NCBI GenBank assembly: GCA_011037195.1
Contig: JAAEAF010014367.1
Span: 124,001-188,000, forward strand
Source of the DNA: Triatoma infestans
Lineage: Eukaryota > Arthropoda > Insecta > Hemiptera > Reduviidae
Length of the DNA: 64,000 bases
Direction: 5' to 3'
Part shown: positions 7,135 through 52,886 of the stretch, in pieces
Numbering within the stretch: position 1 is the first letter of the stretch
Layout: the number at the start of each line of letters is the position of its first letter
Translations under genes and position numbers: made by a program
Notes under the pieces: model-generated
What the model was told of the DNA's origin: nothing
The model's database searches: none
The model's input: the letters and a program-made list of their open reading frames with translations, nothing else

Positions 7135-7917
7135 CTTTCACGCATCCCCGGCTATTGTCTTGTAAAACACTTTTAGGTCTTCGGGATGAGACCGCGTCAG
7201 TAGTTAATTGTAAACCGGCGTTTCGCCCATACTACAATGGGCTTCTTCAGGGTAGTGTTTTCTCTAAATAGAGATGATGTACTCCGTCTGAGCAGAACAT
7301 AGTTGTCAATGCTCAGAGAAAAGGAGAGTAACAGAAAGGAAACAAGTATTTAAGGATTTTTCCCACTAAAACAAGGCTGCAACGTAGCAATGGAAGGGAA
7401 GACTAAGACCTCATCATCCAATAGCCAATCATACGCAAGGTAGAGAAAATTAAGCCCCATATACTACCAACAGCTATCTAAAGAAGGAAAAGGGAACCAA
7501 ACCCTCATCTCTCCACTGTCTACACCACCCACACTATATTCTGAGTGTTGTTTCAGCTTTACACGCGATACTACACCGAATAAAAAAAAAAATCTATGGC
7601 TCAACAGCCCATGAAGGGCCAAGGCTTGCAAGACGGCGATTTGAATAGGGGGCATGTGGTAAGCAAGCCACAGTTCCCACGCCGTTTAGTTCCGGCCTTC
7701 GCTACCTAGGGCGCTACTAATTGTAGCTTCCCACTTTTCATCACGATGCTGGGTCAGCACCGACTTTGCCCTCACGGGAATCAAACGCTGAATTCTCGCA
7801 CGAAAGGCGCGCACTAGACCAACGCGTGAGGACTACCCTGAAAAACCCTGTTGTAATATTGGCGAAACATCGGTCAAACTGCTGACACGGTCTCAATCCG
7901 AAGACCTAGGTGTTTTA
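7135..7917. mobile_element. Hammerhead-bearing foldback element (family HF-C), SINE inside
   Basis: The segment is flanked by a perfect 12-bp direct repeat, CATTCCAATAAT (7123-7134 and 7918-7929). Its ends are inverted repeats of about 110 bp: the left arm reads AAACACTTTTAGGTCTTCGG onward and the right arm is its diverged reverse complement ending CCGAAGACCTAGGTGTTTTA. Each arm has a CUGAAGA-hairpin-GAAAC motif facing outward (minus strand at 7215-7251, plus strand near 7846-7880). The interior codes for nothing recognisable and is interrupted by a tRNA-derived SINE. The 12-bp duplication argues for target-primed retrotransposition; a non-autonomous Penelope-like element is the closest known type (inference). 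Confidence 0.75.
7581..7829 (-). mobile_element. tRNA-derived SINE, family SINE-1 (copy 1)
   Basis: On the minus strand an A-box-like TGGTCTAGTGCGC (7821-7808) and a B-box-like GTTTGATTCCC (7786-7776) form a tRNA-like pol III promoter. A body shared with the copies at 19925, 24888 and 48630 follows, including the block CGCCGTCTTGCAAGCC. The sense strand ends with AGATTTTTT, a T-run that could act as a pol III terminator. It is nested in the right arm of the HF-C foldback. Confidence 0.75.
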
Positions 7918-8119
7918 CATTCCAATAATGTTAGCGCTTTCAAAAGCATTGTCTGGCCAACGATCAAGTCAACAATACAAAATACGTTTCTTCTCTCCAC
8001 TGACACTACCACTTACACATTCATAAAAAAAGTTTGTGTGAAACCATTACTGGACTAATACAGTTACAAATTGATAAATTTTTTTAAACTTGCGCTCTAA
8101 CATAAATATGGTTAATTTA

Positions 8120-9061
8120 AGGCGACCTTATGTGATACACGGACGGCTTCAGGATGGAAGATAGAGTTTTATACAATTGTTAAATATCAAACAAATCAAA
8201 TCCATGTATGATGGATGTGAGAAAAAATATTAATTTGTTGTCAAATCAGAGAATGAGACATAAAAAAATAGGAACGTATATCAATTTAGGAGCTCACTTT
8301 AATGTGTTTGTTTAATGAATTATGCACTGTAGTGAATTGTATGTATAATACGTATACATACCAGGAGATCTATAAAATGTAGGAAGTTGGAGGCTTGGCG
8401 TCAGTTCGGCGTCGCGCTGCAGAATTTTATATATATCTAAATACATTTCTTTGTGTTAGTATAGAGATGTTATATTTCTTATATTCTTATTAACTTTTTA
8501 AAAATAAGAGTGCGTTGAGCATTGAACCCGATCTTACCCGAAGTTATTTGCACATTCCATATTGCACTGTAACGGCGTTACTCATATTCGTTATTTTTTG
8601 TGATGCGATGTGCTTGTGTTAATGTGTGGATTTTTTATATATTATATTTTTCATTTTATATGTTATTTTTATATTTATAAAACTTTGATGTTAGTATTGG
8701 TACTTAAAACATCATTTAGGTATATGACCCAGCAAAGAATCGATGTTAACTCATTGACATTTTCTTTTCTACCGAAACCTTTATTTAGATAATAAAAATT
8801 TCCGTTAAGTTACCCACTTAATTTTTATGTGACGCCAAAGGGTATAACTCTTTTTTTCACAGTTCTTCTCTGGGTGCACAGTGATAGATTTATTGTTAAT
8901 TTAATTGTAGGGGAGGGATGCAAGTTTTTTTACCTGTCTCCTGGCTTACTTCATGATTTCTATCTAGCCAAGCTGTTAATAATGATAGGTAATGTAAGTA
9001 ATTTAAAAAAAAAAAAAAAAAAAGTTGAACCTCCACATATCCAAGTCAGAAGCCGCCACAG
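8120..9061 (-). mobile_element. Decayed non-autonomous hAT-like element (relative of 54254-55303)
   Basis: Over about 900 bp this is a diverged reverse-oriented relative of the 1050-bp hAT-like element at 54254-55303. Shared blocks include TAGGAACGTATATCA, TTCTTTGTGTTAGT and a run matching GTTGAACCTCCACATATCC at the right end. The right terminus ...CAAGTCAGAAGCCGCCACAG matches the CAGTGGCGGCT inverted terminus with one change. The other terminus was not found, so this copy is probably truncated. No transposase is encoded. Confidence 0.65.
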
Positions 9062-9574
9062 TCTCAATGTGTATTTCCGATGAAAAATCAAATTCATTAA
9101 TTTAATACGATACTTCTTCGAATTAGTTCTTCGTACCAGGAATAAGATCAAGTAAAAAAATAAGGCAATCTGAGTTCATAACCACCAGTTTCCTTAGTTA
9201 GTATATTATAAACAGAAAATTATGTTTAATTAAGAAAATTTATGGTTACCTAATAAGTAATTAATCTAATATAATAATATAACTATTCTGAGAACATTAT
9301 TAGTATTCTAATTAGTATTTATTATAATATAATTTAATACATAATGGACTAGTAAATATGAAGTTATGTAAATAAATTTTATTTACAGTCAAACAACTTT
9401 ACAATAATGTAAACTTTATTAAGTCTGGATTTACGAGATGGACTTTATGAGATATACTTGACAAGGTATACGCGGTAGGCTATAAACCCCCACAAAGTTT
9501 TCGAAATTAATTTATCTTATTTCCCTTTTTTTTTTTTAACGTAAATTAAGAGTGTTACAAGGTAAACAAAAAAA
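9062..9574. other. AT-rich spacer without recognised gene
   Basis: No coding frame or repeat of the named families was recognised here; homopolymer T and A runs occur near 9525-9540. Confidence 0.4.
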
Positions 9575-10200
9575 AAAATCTGGTCTCACTCACACGACTT
9601 TCTCTTACTCCTGTTAACACAATTATACATAAAATGACAATTTATTTATTTTTGATCAATTTTTAAATTTTGCTCATTTGTCTTAGATAATCAACTCAAC
9701 CAGTTTAGGTTTATGTCTTTGCAGATTAAATATTAAATATATTCCACTTTTAACGAAAATCTTTGAACTGTTTTCGAGAAACTTCCAAAAAAAAAAAAAA
9801 ACCTCACAAACTCCTTCTATATATAAAGTTACGTTTCCGGTTAACTGATTTTCTGAAAAATGTGTACATCTGTAGCACTTTAGAGGAAAATGAACATTAA
9901 AGTTTCCCTAGAATGCTCAAAAAAATCAATTTTTATAGAAAAATGATAGATAAAAAATTATCTGCTTTTATAAAGGTTTACAAACCTTTGAATGGACTTA
10001 TCATAAACAAACTGGAAGGGATTATCATGTACACCTGGTGTAACTAATTTGCGAGCGCCTCCGTCACAACTAAAGTTAAAAATCGTTAGCGGCAATTTAA
10101 ATTTTAACTTAATTGACAATTACACAAAAAAAACCCTAAAATTCTGGTTCTACCAGAAAAAAACATTTAATTAAAAGTTATAGGACTATATTTGCTCAAT
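9575..10200 (-). repeat. D repeat, minus-strand copy
   Basis: This begins with the family's diagnostic end: an A-run, then TCTGGTCTCACTCACACGAC followed by TTTCTCTTACTCC. Body phrases such as ACTTTAGAGGAAAA and GCGACTT-type segments recur in other copies. The family is about 0.9-1 kb, non-coding and unclassified. One end forms a GTGTGA/TCACAC stem. Confidence 0.6.
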
Positions 10201-10227
10201 GTGCTTCCTAGTAAAATAGTTGTAGCC

Positions 10228-51420: not shown

Positions 51421-51791
51421 GTATTGTACTACCTTGATAACAATTTACTAATTTATTAGGCTGTGTACTAGGTGTAGAGAGAGGATAACTTATGCATTTT
51501 CTCCTCTCTCCGTCAGTCGCCATGTTAAGCTCGAAGGAGTCAATCGCTATCTTAGGCTCGCTTGAGTAAGTTGCTATGCAACACTCGCTGGAAAAAGTTG
51601 TAGTGCAGAAGCAAATCTGTCAATACAATCATGCCATTTAGGTTGCTCTTAATTGTGAAAACTCAAATTTGTTATTTCTGGTTTTCCTGGGTAGTGTTAA
51701 TAAATCGGTCTTTTGTCGAGTAAGCGGCTCCGGTTTTCTCGGACCTGCATAGGTTTGGTATTTTATCCGTCGTAGCATGCATATTGGTTTT

Positions 51792-51833
51792 GTTTCTGAC
51801 CGGTTTCGGATTTTCATCCATCGTCAGAGCAAA
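51792..51833 (-). ncRNA. Hammerhead-ribozyme-like motif (HF-B, left arm)
   Basis: On the minus strand: UUUGCU, core CUGACGA, one extra U, helix II GGAU-GAAA-AUCC, core GAA, helix III ACC/GGU without loop, C17-like base, then AGAAAC, which pairs partly with UUUGCU as helix I. All core bases fit CUGANGA...GAAA. Confidence 0.6.
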
Positions 51834-52758
51834 TTCACCAATTTCGTGTAGAGAGTTCACTTAAACGAAATGTTTTTGTTAGTTTCATCCTTGTTGTTTG
51901 TATATATATGGGAAGGTTATAAGGTGTGTGTGTTTCATGACAAAGTGGAATTATTATAAATTATGATTAGACATTAGAAAGTAGGGGTATAATAAACATG
52001 AGCGTGTATAATAAGCATGTTTTGAAGAATACTCTATAACCAAATTTTAATAGTATTGTTAAGCATGCTCAGTGTTTTATCAAGTCATGTGATGTTATTT
52101 CAAGCGTAAACTGTACTAATATAAATAGATAAATTTTAAAGAAAGGAATGCAAAGATTATGGACAGTCAAAAGCTTGTACAAGTAATAAATAACTGTGAA
52201 ATACAAGCAGGGTTAACACAAGAAATATGTAATGTAATTTATTGATATGTAAGAAGGTTGGCAGAAAACAGCAAATTGGAGATGATATTAAAATAAATAG
52301 TAAAAAGGAAATCAAATGTCGCATTAGAATTTATCATACTTATTTTAAAATTTATGTTTAAATTACATTAAGAATATGTTGAGAGAGGTGTGGTGGCATT
52401 TGTAAAGGTATTTTTAATAAGGCACGGTAGGAGATTTTAAAAATATATCATGCAAATAATCTGTATTTTAATCTGGGAAAAAAGAAAATTTGGTTTCACA
52501 GGTTAGAATTTAACAACGGTACACTGAGCACGCTTAACAACACTATTAAAATTTAGTTTTAAAGTATTCTTCAAAACATGCTATTTATTATACAGTACTT
52601 TCTAATGTCTAATCATAATTAATAATAATTCCACTTTGTCATGAAACACACACACATAGTAACATAACCTTATAACCTTCCCACATATATACAACCAAGA
52701 AGTGTGAGTCTAAACGAAACATTTCGATGAAGTGAACTCTCTGCACAAACTTGGTGAA

Positions 52759-52800
52759 TTTGCTCTGACGATGGATGAAAATCCGAAACCGGTCAGGAAC
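52759..52800 (+). ncRNA. Hammerhead-ribozyme-like motif (HF-B, right arm)
   Basis: On the plus strand: UUUGCU, CUGACGA (52765-52771), extra U, GGAU-GAAA-AUCC (52773-52784), GAA, ACC/GGU (52788-52793), C (52794), AGGAAC. It is the inverse partner of the left-arm motif and is equally intact. Confidence 0.6.
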
Positions 52801-52886
52801 AAAACCAATAAGCATGCTACGATGGATAAAATACCGGATGTTATCCAGCATTGCGGACCCACCCACATTTTCAACCGAATAGGTTT

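Follow-up and report, generated by a model that had tools for sequence, protein, structure and literature searches.

A 64,000-nucleotide stretch of the Triatoma infestans genome (GenBank assembly GCA_011037195.1, contig JAAEAF010014367.1, positions 124,001 to 188,000 of the forward strand; hereafter the window), with a G+C content of ~33%, contains a series of foldbacks bearing hammerhead ribozyme motifs. Two copies are joined head to head, so that the hammerhead near the outer end of each copy faces outward. The foldbacks are probably not a new class but insertions of Penelope-like elements (PLEs) featuring inverted pseudo-long terminal repeats (pseudo-LTRs), with the hammerhead at the junction between the pseudo-LTR and the open reading frame (ORF). 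Four families of arms, termed A, B, C and P2, are represented, and an outward extension, termed the tail, is found at the outer end of some arms.

Foldbacks and hammerhead motifs in the window

The foldback E1 (7135..7917) is a family B head-to-head dimer, the left arm of which (7153-7256, minus strand) reaches ~28 nt further outward, as the tail, than the right arm (7832-7917, plus strand). E3 (37750..38288) and E4 (42720..43696) are family C dimers with a tailed left arm, short in E4, and a right arm without tail (43417-43700 in E4), from which the hammerhead is deleted in E3. E5 (51757..52878) is a family A dimer with the tail on the right arm and none on the left. E2 (25226..26027) is a mosaic lying within one 14-bp duplication and composed of a 13-nt P2-like left stub, a family C left arm with tail and a P2 right arm, its two hammerheads belonging to two different families. 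The stub and the P2 right arm are 95% complementary as inverted segments over 19 nt (25223-25241 and 25980-25998), and from the end of the stub we infer a tail on the P2 arm; E2 arose either by insertion of a C copy at the stub or by a template switch on the left strand. The foldback T (36123..36811), absent from the list of the original prediction, consists of a left arm without tail (36123-36175, minus strand) followed by two tandem right arms with tail (36237-36403 and 36646-36811, plus strand), 407 bp apart. R (17844..18130) is a family A relic, in which the left arm has neither the tail nor most of the core and the right arm lacks GAAACC. The longer outer end is thus on the left only in E1, E3 and E4 and on the right only in E5 and T; R is likewise one-sided, but its tail region is embedded in a direct repeat (17731-17833 and 18115-18218; 103 bp, 91% identical) on both sides of it. 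This repeat holds the family A tail sequence together with a piece resembling the long interspersed nuclear element (LINE) of the window at 4364-4457. Solo degraded arms of family C (5847..5934, plus strand) and family B (26977..27049, minus strand) are also present.

Target-site duplications were identified at E1 (CATTCCAATAAT, 7123-7134 and 7918-7929), E2 (GGTTTCACG[G/A]CTAA, 14 bp) and E3 (GTAAAACAATAA), each with a score that no more than 0.4% of 4000 random flank pairs attained, and a weak one at E5 (ATAGGTTT, 5.3%), while none is significant at E4 (40.6%), R (16%) or T. The element boundaries originally proposed are accordingly fitted by duplications at 7135-7917, 25226-26027 and 37750-38288, weakly at 51757-52878, and not at 42720-43696 or 17844-18130. 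The proposed polarity, minus strand in the left arm and plus strand in the right arm, holds in all six listed elements.

The window was scanned with a descriptor requiring CTGANGA, a helix II with 4 or more base pairs and GAAA, and allowing no or one extra base. This returned six convincing sites and one AT-only site, whereas 200 dinucleotide-shuffled sequences averaged 0.255 sites and never had more than 2. All six are recovered only if an extra base is permitted between A9 and helix II, which is reminiscent of a viroid hammerhead reportedly possessing an additional core nucleotide. The family B core of E1 (7221..7250, minus strand) has the helix II GCCCAU/AUGGGC and the triplet GCC, which is probably degraded from GUC; the triplets of family B are GCC and AUC in two copies, and the solo relic at 26977-27049 reads GTC|GGTTTA. 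In E2, the family C core (25326..25349, minus strand) has the helix II GGGC/GCCC and the predicted cut GUC|GAUG, and the P2 core (25863..25891, plus strand) has the helix II GGCAAAC/GUUUGUC with one G-U pair and the predicted cut GUC|GAAC. The other cores are those of family C in the right arm of E4 (43620..43643, plus strand) and of family A in the left (51804..51827, minus strand; helix II GGAU/AUCC) and right (52765..52788, plus strand) arms of E5. Helix II is wholly different among the four families, yet paired in the best copies of each; the sequences number four, where at least three had been noted originally. GUC is the triplet in the best copies of A, C and P2, helix I of C pairs CAUC with GAUG, and helix III can be assigned from the sequence to a short loopless palindrome, putatively ACCGGU for families A and C and ACGU for P2.

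The motifs resemble the minimal type I hammerhead of PLEs and Terminons, reportedly described by Cervera and de la Pena (2014) and Lunse et al. (2017), and are predicted to be self-cleaving. Both core parts, CTGANGA and GAAA, are kept in 6 of the 11 motifs tabulated in the window and broken in the left arms of E3 and E4, in T1 and T2, and in the right arm of E1. The statement that all listed elements place CUGANGA...GAAAC in the left arm was too broad: among the five left arms the core is intact in E1, E2 and E5 and substituted in E3 (CTGATTA) and E4 (TTGATGA). Of the right arms, those of E2, E4 and E5 retain the full core, that of E1 has a mutated one (CTGAAAA) and that of E3 has lost it by deletion. 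Deletion of the hammerhead with retention of its flanks is seen in one arm each of E3 (37850-38267), R (17844-18130) and T (36123-36222); the deletion in E3 is bordered by an AAAAAG repeat on either side, and in T the left arm picks up again exactly at the predicted cleavage site.

Alignment of the four families with MAFFT misplaced helix II, and the pairs were therefore tabulated by position. RNA folding gave z-scores that ranged between -0.7 and -3.5 and were strong in family A alone (-2.4 and -3.5); in the single-strand minimum-energy folds, helix II is present at the sites of C and A and missing at those of P2 and B. Folding was not taken as proof. The hammerhead models of Rfam did not match the window motifs, either at the gathering thresholds or at E values up to 10, and the genome-wide search with RF00008 returned nothing, which is uninformative as the control genomes were equally blank. 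An Rfam match to MIR837 at 17912-18037 was rejected as the palindrome of the relic R itself, and the other Rfam matches as chance.

Outer and inner ends across the assembly

The assembly was searched over 941,445,613 bases for exact cores. That of family C was matched 14,617 times (7405 forward and 7212 reverse), with 0 matches to the reversed control, and that of family A 2,339 times (1159 and 1180); the exact A/C core pattern had 0 matches in prokaryotic and viral contigs. Sampling followed contig order and took the first 100 places of C and the first 20 of A. Examination of 99 of the 100 C places gave 88 independent loci, as L007 and L029 duplicate L006 and L028 and the place C29:56085 was left out, and the 20 A loci comprise 18 independent ones, with weak partners in L099 and L107 left out.

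The 90 core-bearing arms of family C (pairs counted once) form 47 outward pairs within 700 bp, of which 44 have one tail, 0 have two, 0 have none and 3 contain an unclassifiable arm (L034, L081 and L090). Family A contributes 13 outward pairs, 12 with one tail and 1 with an unclassifiable arm. Exactly one tail is therefore carried by 56 of the 56 classifiable pairs among 60 outward pairs of both families. These 47 C and 13 A pairs bear out the common amplification mode, giving inverted dimers, that had been proposed; the sample was not dominated by single copies or by head-to-tail copies of random orientation, though pairs account for only about half of the sampled arms.

The duplication score exceeds the 95% null in 42 of the 47 C pairs and the 99% null in 26. 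Most of the pairs inspected share the same two outer ends, ...GTCTCTGA without tail and ...ACCACAACAA with it. In family C the outer end lies ~44 or 80 nt beyond the predicted cut, and therefore cleavage does not set the outer boundaries. The inner ends, measured as 5' positions relative to GATGGGC, range from -125 to +87. Clustering of the inner ends at the cut site was considered and rejected: the left arm of T resumes there and L019 and L023 lie 3-4 nt further in, but the wider list has no clear peak.

The 43 unpaired C arms are divided into 19 with tail and 24 without, and into 16 with a duplication and 27 without. Stubs of the opposite type accompany two of the 16, L069 (20 nt) and L078 (9 nt), and on inspection L070, L089 and L090 possess an opposite-type partner that was missed or left unclassed in the automatic pair count. 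L012, L015, L025, L052 and L075 look like one-arm insertions, and six further unpaired C arms with a duplication are less clear. For some of the 27 arms without duplication the partner may lie beyond the sampled DNA. The duplication search on single arms had no computed null, and its repeats include A- or T-runs (L026 and L071). An inward-facing outer neighbour was found for 8 of the 90 C arms, 5 of them in outward pairs, and a same-strand inner neighbour for 4 of the 90; family A has no inward neighbours within 700 bp. Among the 100 exact C places, 10 pairs closer than 1 kb are in the (-,+) order, compared with one in the (+,-) order, which lies between two adjacent foldbacks (L074).

Coding content and proposed origin of the dimers

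An ATG within the hammerheads of A and C opens a common frame, MDENPKPVRNKTNKHATMDKIPDVIQHCGPTH in A and MGERPKPVDDHKKKQAIMENISDAFQLCGTNH in C (commonest letters). The two agree at 15 of 32 residues and at 68 of 96 bases, and the differing bases number 7, 8 and 13 at the first, second and third codon positions. The predicted cut falls 24 or 27 nt past the ORF start, depending on the choice of ATG. Because the core constitutes the first codons of the PLE ORF, its conservation in A and C is confounded with coding. The suggested selection on RNA structure is consequently favoured in one respect, as helix II differs and yet stays paired in the best copies of four families, and weakened in others, as the A/C core also codes, 5 of 11 cores are broken and the folds of P2 and B are without helix II.

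By tblastn, one endonuclease frame, whole or partial, was located upstream of the C arms in five of the 88 C loci (L026, L032, L039, L040 and L072), and a related one in the family A locus L102. The PF01541 (GIY-YIG) domain was matched in L032 with 24.9 bits and in the overlapping upstream stretch L114 with 25.5 bits (cut-off 22.6). L026 is an apparent 5'-truncated copy with no partner within 1.3 kb and a weak duplication, a T-run. L011 (G000:C4:264241-267266), a family C arm whose partner was not found, adjoins by eye an apparent LINE reverse-transcriptase frame, either through insertion into a LINE or through a template switch.

The assignment to PLEs is made because target-site duplications, a GIY-YIG frame upstream, an ORF start inside the A and C hammerheads and a tail on one arm occur together; families B and P2 are placed there provisionally, by anatomy only. 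There is good reason to regard the foldbacks as short PLE insertions, mostly 5'-truncated or non-autonomous, in which the head-to-head dimer is formed afresh with each insertion.

Earlier work bears on how inverted PLE copies are made: self-priming was proposed in 2013 (PMC3846280), and nicking and extension of both strands were observed in vitro in 2024, the later steps being left unvalidated (PMC11167929). The dimers in T. infestans are likely to arise by target-primed reverse transcription from both nicked strands, each primed at a different internal site of the RNA. The PLE protein would nick both target strands ~12 nt apart, and each 3' end would prime reverse transcription within the 5' portion of the PLE RNA. 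On one strand the start would be at the proximal site, ~70 nt into the ORF in family C, leaving no tail, and on the other at the distal AC-rich site, ~105 nt into the ORF, leaving the tail. Each complementary DNA (cDNA) would cross the ORF start, the hammerhead and the pseudo-LTR and halt at its own 5' truncation point, and the joining of the two cDNAs would leave both 3' ends and both hammerheads outward. That each dimer has two fixed but unlike outer ends suggests that reverse transcription started twice, independently, and the inner ends, which vary and are mostly unequal, suggest that each cDNA was truncated at 5' on its own. A PLE protein studied in vitro cuts both strands and extends them, and initiates at two neighbouring sites within the RNA, the AC-rich one 111-118 nt into the ORF; the tail matches the stretch between the two start sites (PMC11167929). 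In the parts of that study compared, the strands had no apparent difference in start site, and a split into one proximal and one distal start is not predicted by it.

The integration may further be obligately asymmetric, a proposal for which the chances are about even: two enzyme units would have to use different RNA start sites, giving exactly one tail per dimer, the head-to-head order would be a readout of two-sided target-primed reverse transcription, and E2 would record strands that copied different RNAs. We infer an asymmetric complex. Thousands of short, well-bounded copies in one genome turn the mechanism into a counting problem, and the one-tail rule, favouring two starts that are independent and have fixed roles, gives a simple prediction in vitro. 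The outward orientation of the hammerheads would follow, as this suggests, from priming at 3' ends and not from a function of the foldback RNA. Hammerhead mutants of the PLE PAc still insert in vitro (PMC11167929).

Self-priming, the model put forward for Adineta Penelope elements, in which one cDNA or antisense template folds back and is copied so that a single initiation gives both arms, was inferred from palindromes at inverted junctions and from head-to-head order (PMC3846280). It fits the near-seamless inner junctions of L010, L047 and L064 (gaps of -1 to 0) and the inner ends of L009 and L027, which are equal away from the alignment limit. Copying of the second arm to the outer end of the first would, however, place a tail on both arms or on neither, whereas exactly one was seen in 56 of 56 classifiable pairs, and E2 unites arms of two families, unless by nested insertion; the model is accordingly judged improbable, though it is the strongest of the competitors. 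An origin from metazoan non-LTR retrozymes, whose small circular RNAs bear type I hammerheads and are reverse transcribed by PLE enzymes, would account for a hammerhead of this type, as most classical animal type I hammerheads were reported there and PLEs were suggested as the machinery (PMC7229834, PMC7761336), and the window copies at 36237 and 36646 are in tandem at ~407 bp. That origin is nevertheless doubtful in the extreme, as helix III is short and loopless in A, C and P2, the A and C arms hold an ORF start and in some copies lie behind a GIY-YIG frame, and head-to-head dimers with tails are the layout of PLEs; the sampled partners stand head to head and not, as in retrozymes, head to tail, apart from one tandem in the window and a same-strand inner neighbour in 4 of 90 C arms. 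Least probable of all is a DNA foldback resembling a miniature inverted-repeat transposable element (MITE), with long terminal inverted repeats carrying the hammerhead by chance and the dimer moved as a unit by a transposase. Inverted arms, short spacers and short duplications are similar there, but the ends are asymmetric, the inner junctions differ, one-arm and tandem forms exist and some arms are preceded by a PLE endonuclease frame; identical termini with a conserved internal junction, as in a MITE, were not seen.

Several observations weigh against two-sided priming of PLE RNA or against the identification of the foldbacks as PLEs. The sample was not random, and the cut-offs for the tail were fixed after the first 30 loci had been seen. 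One-arm insertions exist, and in a relic pair within L032 that has no exact core and stands outside the count, the arms end early and neither has a tail. Equal inner ends occur in 12 of 50 mapped pairs, 10 of them at -47, where the alignment tends to stop. Arms within an insertion are 0.928 identical, compared with 0.920 for random arms (42 pairs); this near-random similarity fits separate templates but may reflect age alone. The endonuclease link concerns families C and A only, the family A stretches L102 and L115 score 20.0 and 19.2 bits with PF01541, under the cut-off, and the L026 piece alone has no match to that domain. The endonuclease fragment has no relative in the protein database or PDB, and no reverse-transcriptase domain was matched among the frames scanned in three upstream stretches (L113, L114 and L115).

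Related systems and other features of the window

Inverted pseudo-LTRs, head-to-head order, tails, duplications and PLE hammerheads have already been published (PMC3846280, PMC11167929, PMC7761336), and the additions made here are the strict one-tail count and its reading. Neither a strict one-tail rule nor a two-start account of the dimers was found in the literature searched, though the primary hammerhead papers, the 2021 PLE paper and older PLE reviews may contain either. The Penelope elements of Adineta vaga (Pen2a_Av and others) share the inverted pseudo-LTRs, the head-to-head order and a pseudo-LTR extending over the ORF start, as well as duplications of 8-10 bp and a 31-bp tail, an instance of the 30-40 nt extension that is optional on one inverted pseudo-LTR of PLEs (PMC3846280). 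They form a low-copy set, with no per-pair tail count in the parts of that report compared, whereas thousands of short copies are present here and 56 of 56 classifiable pairs have one tail. In PAc, the Poseidon element of Anolis, the ORF starts at hammerhead stem II and the cut lies 26 nt downstream (24 or 27 nt here), and, as proposed for T. infestans, two internal starts of reverse transcription bound a tail of 30-40 nt and the protein nicks and extends both strands (PMC11167929). Its loci are tandem, without apparent strand difference in the parts of the report compared, whereas the end types in T. infestans are split one per arm.

The minimal type I form of PLEs and Terminons, described as lacking helix III nucleotides (PMC7761336, PMC6155905), is comparable in its type I core, the absence of a closed helix III hairpin and the pseudo-LTR location (PMC7761336, PMC6155905, PMC6431247). 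The extra base between A9 and helix II and the palindromic helix III ACCGGU of A and C are differences from it as described in these citing papers, although the primary papers may list both. Metazoan retrozymes have in common the type I hammerhead and short non-coding repeats, and differ in being tandem units of ~150-350 bp with circular RNA (PMC7229834, PMC7761336), in contrast to inverted dimers with a PLE ORF start.

The 900-bp palindrome at 49372-50277, with arm segments 92-94% complementary and CAGGGTGTC-type ends, has no hammerhead motif and looks like an ordinary DNA foldback or MITE. A LINE occupies 1214-5541 on the minus strand, with an endonuclease-reverse transcriptase ORF of 1144 aa and an upstream ORF containing a Baculo_FP_2nd domain. 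The ten best database relatives of the LINE ORF are 32-37% identical to it; the best named matches are from the insects Neodiprion and Photinus, with weaker ones in plants and a fungus. Direct repeats of 275 bp (31352-31626 and 34509-34783; 95% identical, 3157 bp apart) enclose a fragment of a mariner-type transposase (31856-32569). Tandem arrays comprise a 331-bp unit in 2.8 copies (10279-11190), with degraded relatives at 29909, 46727 and 60128, and two perfect repeats, of a 51-bp unit (14151-14358, 4.1 copies) and a 46-bp unit (44301-44394, 2.0 copies). A dispersed short repeat lies at 7583-7817, 24921-25055, 48633-48795 and 19951-20121, one copy being inside the centre of E1.

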